Positions 1,255 to 27,573 of a stretch of 64,000 nt of DNA are shown piece after piece. Position 1 is the stretch's first letter; each line of letters starts with the position of its first letter. A model generated the notes under the pieces. It had not been told where the DNA came from and made no database searches. It saw nothing but the letters and a program-made list of their open reading frames with translations. Made by a program: the position numbers and the translations under genes. The stretch comes from Ruminococcus sp. (GTDB lineage: Bacteria; Bacillota; Clostridia; Oscillospirales; Ruminococcaceae), in contig SVNM01000003.1 in assembly GCA_015066875.1 (NCBI GenBank), forward strand, positions 19,091 to 83,090, given 5' to 3'.

Positions 1255-1331
1255 TAAGGCTCTCCTTTAAGTAAATTATCCATACGGAAGCATTATGTGT
1301 ATTTAGTGGGGGAACCTTTCTGAAGAAAGTT

Positions 1332-1397
1332 TATGCCTGACAGGCACCCGTCCCCTCTGTCAGCTTCGCTGACATCTCCCCACCCCGTGGGGAGTCA
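1332..1397 (-). repeat. Nested 66-bp sub-element in left arm of copy A
   Basis: Read on the minus strand it contains three small hairpins: ACTCCCC..GGGGAG, GTCAGCGAAGCTGAC and GCCTGTCAGGC. It is nearly identical to 27427-27492 in copy E and related to 1546-1606. It interrupts the side hairpin of the larger repeat, so it entered later or is an optional module. Confidence 0.75.
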
Positions 1398-1545
1398 CCC
1401 ACACCCCCTACAAAGACTTTTACTCTGAATTAAATCCCCATATGGTACACACTAATAACGAGATGTTAAAATCTTATCAAAATGGTGTGTGTACCATATG
1501 GGGAATTAATTTAAAAATGAAAGTTTTAGGAAAGGAGTTTGAGGA

Positions 1546-1606
1546 TTACTCCCCGCAGTGCGGGGAGATGTCCGAAGGACAGAGGGGACAGGCTCCCGTT
1601 GGGAGA
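1546..1606 (+). repeat. Nested 61-bp sub-element in right arm of copy A
   Basis: Same architecture as the 66-bp module (ACTCCCCGCAGTGCGGGGAG, GTCCGAAGGAC, then an imperfect GGCTCCCGTTGGGAG hairpin), with different stem sequences that remain self-complementary. It is inserted just before the CCCTTTTTCAAAAGGG hairpin. Confidence 0.7.
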
Positions 1607-1693
1607 ACCCTTTTTCAAAAGGGTTTTCCTCAATAAATCACGTAAATACTTCTGTGTGAAAAGTCTCCTAAGGGTGAGCCTTAATTTTTGTTA

Positions 1694-12950: not shown

Positions 12951-13249
12951 GGACTGCTTAAGGGCGCTACCCATATAGAAGTATTTACGTGAATTATTGA
13001 GGGAAACCCTTTTGAAAAAGGGTTATCCCTCAAACTCCTTTCCTAAAACTTTCATTTTTAATTAAATCCCCATAGGGTACACACACCATTTTAAAGAGAG
13101 TTCGATTTCTCGTTATCTGTGTGCACCCTATGGGGATTTAATTCAGAGTAAAAGTCTTTGTAGGGGGTGTGGGGGCAAACTTTCTTCAGAAAGGTTCCCC
13201 CACTAAATACGCATAATGCTTCCGTATAGACAGTACCCTTATGCGGTCC
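12951..13249 (-). repeat. Nested-hairpin repeat, copy B (299 bp)
   Basis: Outer arms GGACTGC (12951) and GCGGTCC (ends 13249) pair and are followed by TTTTTT, as in an intrinsic terminator. Orientation is opposite to copy A. Internal order: right-type hairpin AACCCTTTTGAAAAAGGGTT, central stem AATTAAATCCCC / GGGGATTTAATT with CATAGGGTACACAC, and left-type hairpin AAACTTTCTTCAGAAAGGTT. It has the same length (299 bp) as copy C and no sub-insert. It separates the TPR gene from the SpoIVFB-like pair. Confidence 0.85.
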
Positions 13250-14161: not shown

Positions 14162-14460
14162 GGGAGCTTTATGGGTACTGTCTATACGGAAGCATTATGC
14201 GTATTTAGTGGGGGAACCTTTCTGAAGAAAGTTTCCCACCACACCCCCTCCAAAGACTTTTGAGTCTAATTTAAGCCCCATAGGGTGCACACGGAGAAAT
14301 AATTAAATTTCTTCTTTACTTGATGTGTGTACCCTATGGGGCTTAAATTAAAAACTTGAAAGTTTTAGGAAAGGAGTTTGAGGGATAACCCTTTTTCAAA
14401 AGGGTTTCCCTCAATAATTCACGTAAATACTTCTATATAGGTAGCGCCCTTAAGACTCCC
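14162..14460 (+). repeat. Nested-hairpin repeat, copy C (299 bp)
   Basis: Arms GGGAG (14162) and CTCCC (to 14460) pair and are followed by TTATTTTTAT. It begins 2 bp after the protease stop and ends 6 bp before the radA stop, between convergent genes. Central stem AATTTAAGCCCC / GGGGCTTAAATT with CATAGGGTGCACAC / GTGTGTACCCTATG. The side hairpins are clean and uninterrupted, so this copy is a good type specimen. Confidence 0.85.
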
Positions 14461-22680: not shown

Positions 22681-22976
22681 AACAGGACATTTATCGTTGC
22701 TGTTCTTATATAAGCATTATATATTTTTCGGGGGAAACTTTCTGAAGAAAGTATCCCCCATACCCCCTCCAAAGACTTTTAATCTGAATTTCAGCCCCAT
22801 AGGGTGCACACCGAGAGAATTTTAAGCATCTCAGTTGTTTGTTGTGCACCCTATGGGGCTGAAATTAAAAACTGAAAGTTTTAGGAAAGGAGTTTGAGGG
22901 AAACACTTTTTCAAAAGGGTTTCCCTCAATAAGTGTGTAAAACTTCTATCAAAGCATTAACTATGAATGTCCCGTT
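22681..22976 (+). repeat. Nested-hairpin repeat, copy D (296 bp)
   Basis: Arms AACAGGACATT (22681) and AATGTCCCGTT (to 22976) pair over 11 positions with one mismatch and run into TTATTATTT. Central stem AATTTCAGCCCC / GGGGCTGAAATT. It begins 7 bp after the regulator stop and ends 3 bp before the amidase stop (convergent genes). It is the most divergent copy at its ends, which suggests an older insertion. Confidence 0.85.
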
Positions 22977-27196: not shown

Positions 27197-27573
27197 AAAA
27201 ATACCAGAGAATTTAAAGGTAATGACCATACAGAAGTAATTACGTATAATAATGAGGAAAACCCTTTTGAAAAAGTGTTTTCCTCAAACTCCTTTCCTAA
27301 AACTTTCAAGTTTTAATTTCAGCCCCATAGGGTGCACACAGAGAAATACTTATATTTCTTTTTTACTTGGTGTGTGTACCCTATGGGGCTGAAATTAGAC
27401 TCAAAAGTCTTTGTAGGGGGTGTGGGTGACTCCCCACAGTGTGGGGAGATGTCAGCGAAGCTGACAGAGGGGACGGGTGCCTGTCAGGCATAAACTTTCT
27501 TCAGAAAGGTTCCCCCACTAAATACATATAATACTTCTATATGAGCATAACCCTTAACTGCTCCGGTATTTTT
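27197..27573 (-). repeat. Nested-hairpin repeat, copy E (377 bp, one sub-insert)
   Basis: Arms AAAAATACC (27197) and GGTATTTTT (to 27573) pair over 9 bp, then GAG/CTC and TTAAAGG/CCCTTAA. On the minus strand this forms a terminator right after the 27585 gene. Central stem AATTTCAGCCCC / GGGGCTGAAATT. A 66-bp nested module lies in the left-type arm (27427-27492). Confidence 0.85.
27427..27492 (+). repeat. Nested 66-bp sub-element in copy E
   Basis: Three small hairpins (ACTCCCCACAGTGTGGGGAG, GTCAGCGAAGCTGAC, GCCTGTCAGGC); nearly identical to the reverse complement of 1332-1397 and inserted at the same point of the host arm. Confidence 0.75.

Follow-up and report, generated by a model that had tools for sequence, protein, structure and literature searches.

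A three-hairpin module nested at stem boundaries of larger palindromic repeats in Ruminococcus

Why do some copies of a large palindromic repeat in a Ruminococcus genome carry a smaller multi-hairpin module in their arms while others carry none, and is that module a fixed part of the repeat or an element in its own right? The window, a stretch of 64,000 nucleotides holding copies A to E of the large repeat, belongs to a Ruminococcus metagenome-assembled genome of 2.25 Mb in 107 contigs (88% complete). An earlier note on this DNA had placed 66-bp modules at 1332-1397 and 27427-27492 and a 61-bp relative at 1546-1606, positions that the sequence bears out, and had described copies A and E as occupied and B, C and D as empty, in agreement with an alignment in which the latter three run uninterrupted through both sites. 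We use M for both types, a module of 60-66 bases composed of three small hairpins. When trimmed against the empty copies, the three modules span 1334-1397 (+), 1546-1605 (-) and 27427-27490 (-), and the features of the window are as follows.

1268..1671, + strand: copy A of the large composite palindrome (the host element), with a module in both arms; ends approximate
1306..1312, + strand: 5′ strand of the host left-arm outer stem, GTGGGGG; in copy A the 3′ strand is CCCAC at 1398-1402
1313..1333, + strand: host left-arm inner hairpin, AACCTTTCTGAAGAAAGTTT plus A, immediately 5′ of the module
1334..1397, + strand: M, left-arm type, 64 nt, in place of the CC of the empty arm
1334..1346, + strand: hairpin 1 (hp1) of M, TGCCT-GAC-AGGCA
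1359..1373, + strand: hairpin 2 (hp2) of M, GTCAGC-TTC-GCTGAC, with a GAA triloop on the other strand
1376..1394, + strand: hairpin 3 (hp3) of M, CTCCCCAC-CCC-GTGGGGAG
1437..1504, + strand: central palindrome of copy A; coordinates approximate
1546..1605, - strand: M, right-arm type, 60 nt, with hairpins CTCCC-AAC-GGGAG, GTCC-TTC-GGAC and CTCCCCGC-ACT-GCGGGGAG
12958..13241, - strand: copy B of the large repeat, with no module in either arm
14167..14452, + strand: copy C of the large repeat, with no module in either arm
22722..22949, + strand: copy D of the large repeat, with no module in either arm
27213..27556, - strand: copy E of the large repeat, of which only the left arm has a module
27427..27490, - strand: M, left-arm type, in copy E

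The two modules of copy A lie in opposite orientation on the window strand, as the note had it, because the arms are inverted repeats; relative to the arm, both point the same way. Folding as DNA recovered the three hairpins that had been described for each type, but the sequence given for them, GTCAGCGAAGCTGAC, fits only the middle hairpin of one type, and the stems differ. Both strands of both types fold into three triloop hairpins (z -4.2 to -6.0; 0/200 shuffles), while RNA folding did not recover the three hairpins for the 61-bp type.

Within the window's genome, 28 copies of M were located by BLAST, and a search with the core pattern returned the same 28 sites; an independent hp3 pattern gave 24 sites, all among the 28. 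Every one of these copies lies inside the large repeat and always at the same point, with the 66-bp type in the left arm (21 copies) and the 61-bp type in the right arm (7 copies), and no free copy was found in this genome by BLAST or the two pattern searches. Since about 10 modules sit at contig ends, the true number is probably higher than 28. The large repeat itself is present in at least 68 copies, and where both arms are visible, neither is occupied in 32 copies (L0/R0), only the left in 11 (L66/R0), only the right in four (L0/R61) and both in three (L66/R61). These arm states combine with differing ends, centres and loop orientations, and the copies are therefore recombinant mosaics; because M never occurs here outside the large repeat, most of its copies were probably amplified as passengers and not inserted one by one. 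We also observed that the large repeat has its central loop in either orientation with the same arms around it (own-genome copies L029-L088), as if the loop had been inverted at the palindrome, and that the repeat often lies within the loop of a gene's terminator hairpin, as in GAGTACC[element]GGGTACTCCTTTTTTTT, with the terminator stem closing around it (L033, L085, L088 and window positions 1257-1685).

Taken by itself, this genome would suit a history in which the large repeat contained M from the start and the copies without M have lost it by deletion: all of its modules occupy fixed sites, and both homologous arms can hold M, identically placed and oriented. The earlier note had named such a constant association as the finding that would speak against nesting, and it holds as far as this genome is concerned; across the genus, M is also found free and in other hosts. 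The M core, TCTGTC-stem-loop-GACATCTCCCC, scanned as a pattern with 17 fixed bases, was found forwards in 64 of 125 genus genomes, with up to 58 copies per genome, and in none of the 125 when the pattern was run backwards as a control, and it is therefore not a product of chance. In genus genomes G007, G009, G010 and G012, M stands free, in tandem or within other hairpins, so that the search for the module alone succeeded in relatives, even though 0 of 28 copies are free in the window's genome. The idea that one hairpin element has nested inside others thus gained from the free copies in relatives, from the variety of host hairpins and from hosts that are intact when empty.

These empty hosts reveal where M is placed. 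Hairpin loops had been proposed as repeated targets, and palindromes are indeed hit repeatedly, as the several hosts and their intact empty forms attest, but the site is not simply the loop. Mapping of the insertion points, which the note had suggested, put the boundary just 5′ of the host 3′ stem strand (|CCC), with one to three host bases, usually two, replaced. Across unrelated hosts, M is found directly 5′ of that strand in one orientation, with its GTCA end against the stem; in one host the site is the linker adjoining a hairpin. A CAAGGG hairpin occurs in both states in G009, G010 and G021: the empty form, GCAAGGGCTGTC-AG-CCCTTGACCTGACC, is a perfect palindrome, CAAGGGCTG-T-CAGCCCTTG, and the occupied form reads GCAAGGGCTGTC-[M]-CCCTTGACCTGACC, i.e. 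CAAGGGCTGTC[M]CCCTTG. Similarly, empty and occupied left or right arms of the large repeat coexist in G002, G003, G008, G010 and the window's genome. The bases replaced in clean pairs were AG (three genomes), CC, TT and TC, and once a single T, with the two-base replacement ambiguous by one or two bases in C-rich hosts and the right arm of the window's own repeat also alignable with none replaced. A target-site duplication, considered because the 5′ strand of hp1 often resembles the host CCC strand, was rejected, since occupied hosts lack bases of the empty form. For copies outside the large repeat, the flanks on either side of one M are more complementary to each other than to the flanks of other copies (mean run 4.83 vs 4.21; 3/2000 permutations), with some copies not clearly in a stem.

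One hp1 subtype (CCCTAATCGGG) is shared by four host palindromes, and at least six hp1 subtypes occupy the large-repeat site in different species. That a single M is found in many hosts and a single host with many Ms, and that the empty palindromes are intact, makes insertion into palindromes already present more likely than loss from an ancestral composite. At the copy A locus, followed through nadC, the element is absent in 29 of 29 relatives, and we infer insertion from paralogous host copies. Deletion from an original composite is contradicted genus-wide by the occurrence of M free and in unrelated hosts, by empty arms that are intact palindromes and not scars, with no partially deleted module among the arms inspected, and by the different hp1 types held at one site in different species; we regard it as very improbable as a general account, while it could still hold for single-copy histories in this genome. 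As a separate observation, G009, G010 and G021 contain long trains of differing small GC-rich hairpins (GGGGCTTTGCCCC, CAAGGGCTGTCAGCCCTTG and CCAAAGG..CCTTTGG; L332-L361); these trains recur as composites into which M is inserted at one or two positions.

The layout of M is hp1 (variable stem, AC-type loop), GTCCCCTCT, hp2 (GTC..GAC), AT, hp3 (CTCCCC..GGGGAG) and TCA, of which TCCCCTCTGTC, GACATCTCCCC, GGGGAG and the loops are constant. Its stems covary: in a gap-free set of 27 distinct M cores, 99.7% of cells were paired and 26 were double-change cells, compared with 8.0 in shuffled sets (0/500 as high) and at most five when the partner strand was slid as a control. Position 4 of hp2 was paired in 35 of 39 cases vs 12.9 expected when all distinct hairpins were counted. 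The hp1 loops are centred on AC (AAC, GAC, TAAC and TGAC), and of 29 distinct hp2 hairpins with a triloop, 18 show GNA when read on the bottom strand and none on the top; the tetraloops are mostly GNNA. Loops of the C-GNA-G and C-GNNA-G kind are especially stable in single-stranded DNA, and the loop bias on one strand, the sole pointer of this sort, hints that the bottom strand of M is recognised as single-stranded DNA hairpins.

Strong stem covariation, together with the position of the window's M copies downstream of genes, would also be expected of a structured RNA element, serving for example 3′-UTR stability or termination and kept by selection on transcripts. However, the orientation of these copies relative to the genes varies, and any transcript of copy A would contain one module in sense and one in antisense. 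Folding is less consistent as RNA than as DNA, and the core is missing from about half of the genus. No Rfam family matched at gathering score anywhere in the window, and a permissive scan gave sub-threshold matches only, to microRNA models that match any long palindrome. A role at the RNA level thus appears improbable.

Neither a transposase nor an autonomous parent of M was found among 30 Y1 loci and 30 RAYT loci. The core was absent within 1.5 kb of all 30 Y1-transposase loci, and strong IS200-type Y1 genes do not track its presence (p 0.64); derivation of M from IS200/IS605 was rejected on both grounds. The RAYT loci yielded one loose match to a relaxed M pattern. Mobilisation of M as a REP family by resident RAYT (TnpA-REP) genes has in its favour that the window's genome contains three RAYT-like genes and that across the genus RAYT presence goes with that of the core (43/54 vs 21/71, Fisher p 3e-8, phylogeny not controlled). 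The RAYT genes of this genome, however, each contain within the open reading frame an inverted pair of GTAG REPs of their own, unrelated to M, and the cognate repeats are therefore others than M, which has no GTAG tag. Among 12 M-rich genomes without a RAYT BLAST hit, 11 were also negative with a RAYT profile and the twelfth had a fragment only. Despite the correlation, RAYT was accordingly rejected as the cognate enzyme, and a REP family under its control is an improbable identity for M. In many RAYT genes of the genus, two inverted GTAG REPs lie about 180 bp apart in an open frame (L302-L331, L362, L363, L365 and L366), and the REP type changes with the gene type; this fits the published trait of TnpA-Y1 subclass 2.4, an inverted GTAG REP pair inside its own reading frame (PMC6006769).

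Spread could also have occurred by recombination only, through gene conversion between palindromes or template switching at replication forks, without any dedicated enzyme. The mosaic copies of the large repeat in this genome agree with this, as do the M-rich genomes without RAYT genes and the M subtype usually shared by left and right arms of one species, which gene conversion could produce. Yet the constant orientation and junction and the near-constant length of the replacement across unrelated hosts would be hard to obtain by homology-poor template switching, and those hosts offer no common sequence for conversion beyond short CCC strands. While recombination very probably plays a part in the spread of the composites, we think it rather unlikely to be the whole explanation.

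We therefore favour, as the probable though far from certain reading, that M is an independent, apparently old, non-autonomous REP-like element that enters unrelated palindromes at the boundary of the 3′ stem strand, with the composites then multiplying. M would enter unrelated palindromic repeats just 5′ of the host 3′ stem strand, in one orientation and usually with replacement of two bases; composites of host and M would then multiply and recombine as units, and in the window's genome only such composites would remain, with M in the left arm, the right arm or both. Movement would have been by insertion, M may act as single-stranded DNA hairpins, as the loop bias on one strand suggests, and an enzyme acting in trans could have moved it, an HUH/Y1-type single-stranded DNA transposase being the most natural candidate kind. 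A bolder version is conceivable but doubtful: that in M we see one component of a hitherto undescribed single-stranded DNA mobility system, in which a trans-acting enzyme inserts a tripartite hairpin element, common to Firmicutes and other phyla, into folded palindromes at the boundary of the 3′ stem strand, two bases being replaced and repeats coming to lie within other repeats that themselves lie within terminators.

Beyond the genus, the M core also occurs in Pseudoflavonifractor, Chloroflexi, Mesorhizobium, Roseibium and other records, some of which are metagenome-assembled genomes that may be contaminated. A 22-base pattern gave at least 113 matches in a 257-Gb collection, compared with an estimated 0.4 or so by chance. 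Comparison with the CCCTCTGTC..GACATCTCC repeats of gut clostridia, which the note had recommended, showed them to be of the same family as M. A 30-base core identical to that of Ruminococcus is present on the Rhizobium plasmids NZ_CP022999.1 and NC_020062.1, and a nearly complete module was seen in three short gut records labelled ‘Bacteriophage sp.’ (MT838420, MT839611 and MT838377), reflecting either phage carriage or mis-binned host DNA. On contig C1 of G009, 43 of 47 M cores (26 of 30 clusters) fall in the chromosome half around recF-gyrB (binomial p 1e-9; 3e-5 by cluster), which is probably the half near the origin; by eye, the strand bias of M relative to replication direction in G009 showed no switch at the presumed origin.

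The spread of short hairpin repeats without a linked transposase is an open question in REP biology, and M, with its many subtypes, several hosts and both empty and occupied palindromes, makes a strand-specific insertion rule testable at the bench. It also suggests a reason why composites grow: one palindrome offers a landing site to another, and after an insertion there the host hairpin may still be able to fold, as may a terminator that contains it.

Among known classes, M fits the broad one of untagged REP-like elements, being short, repeated and intergenic, with covarying stem-loops and small loops. No GTAG or GTGG foot was present in the M cores read, and no linked RAYT gene flanked by or containing M was found, the RAYT reading frames holding GTAG REPs and the 30 Y1 loci no M. 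Assignment to the CGTC REPs was rejected on layout, as CGTC occurs only within the CGTCCCCTC linker, hp2 begins with GTC/GAC and hp3 with CTCCCC. M alone was likewise rejected as a MITE, given that its ends are not inverted repeats of each other and that occupied and empty pairs show replacement, not duplication. The IS200/IS605 scheme is not known to involve the removal of about two target bases. BOX, RUP and SPRITE repeats and the Neisseria mosaics are modular composites of small repeats that multiply together, and the M composites, set beside them by description only, are alike in this modular co-multiplication. The Neisseria mosaics are mentioned in PMC3733652.

Like the REP, BIME and REPIN repeats of the GTAG superfamily, M is short, high-copy, intergenic and non-autonomous, with covarying stems and small loops, and is often grouped into larger palindromic composites (PMC3733652, PMC3116915); unlike them, it has no GTAG tag, three different hairpins instead of one, and no linked RAYT. 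With the CGTC-tagged REPs, including Neisseria dRS3, it shares a trans-phylum distribution, a palindromic nature and the lack of a dedicated transposase (PMC3733652). Those repeats are strong in alpha-Proteobacteria, some being reported inserted within larger palindromes, and have 8-9 bp stems almost always beginning with complementary AT, 4-5 nt loops and mostly a CCA tail (PMC3733652), a layout of AT-started stem and CCA tail that M does not share. TnpA-REP cuts at CT or CA dinucleotides beside a hairpin and recognises hairpins on one strand only (PMC8266576); such one-strand recognition may be common to M, IS200/IS605 and TnpA-REP, whereas M has no linked enzyme or identified guide sequence. 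Nesting of REPs in palindromes is already known, from A. variabilis GTAG-15, T. roseum GTAG-23, where the target palindrome is present in hundreds of copies, and H. neapolitanus CGTC-1 (PMC3733652). Searching the literature for the M core sequence gave only unrelated matches among those listed, and the open literature searched appears to contain no description of the untagged three-hairpin family, of its placement rule as seen in palindromes that are empty or occupied, or of its occurrence outside Firmicutes. In contrast to the known cases of REPs in palindromes, M occupies several unrelated hosts at a fixed strand and junction, usually with two bases replaced, and its host can itself be a multi-hairpin repeat lying within a terminator hairpin.
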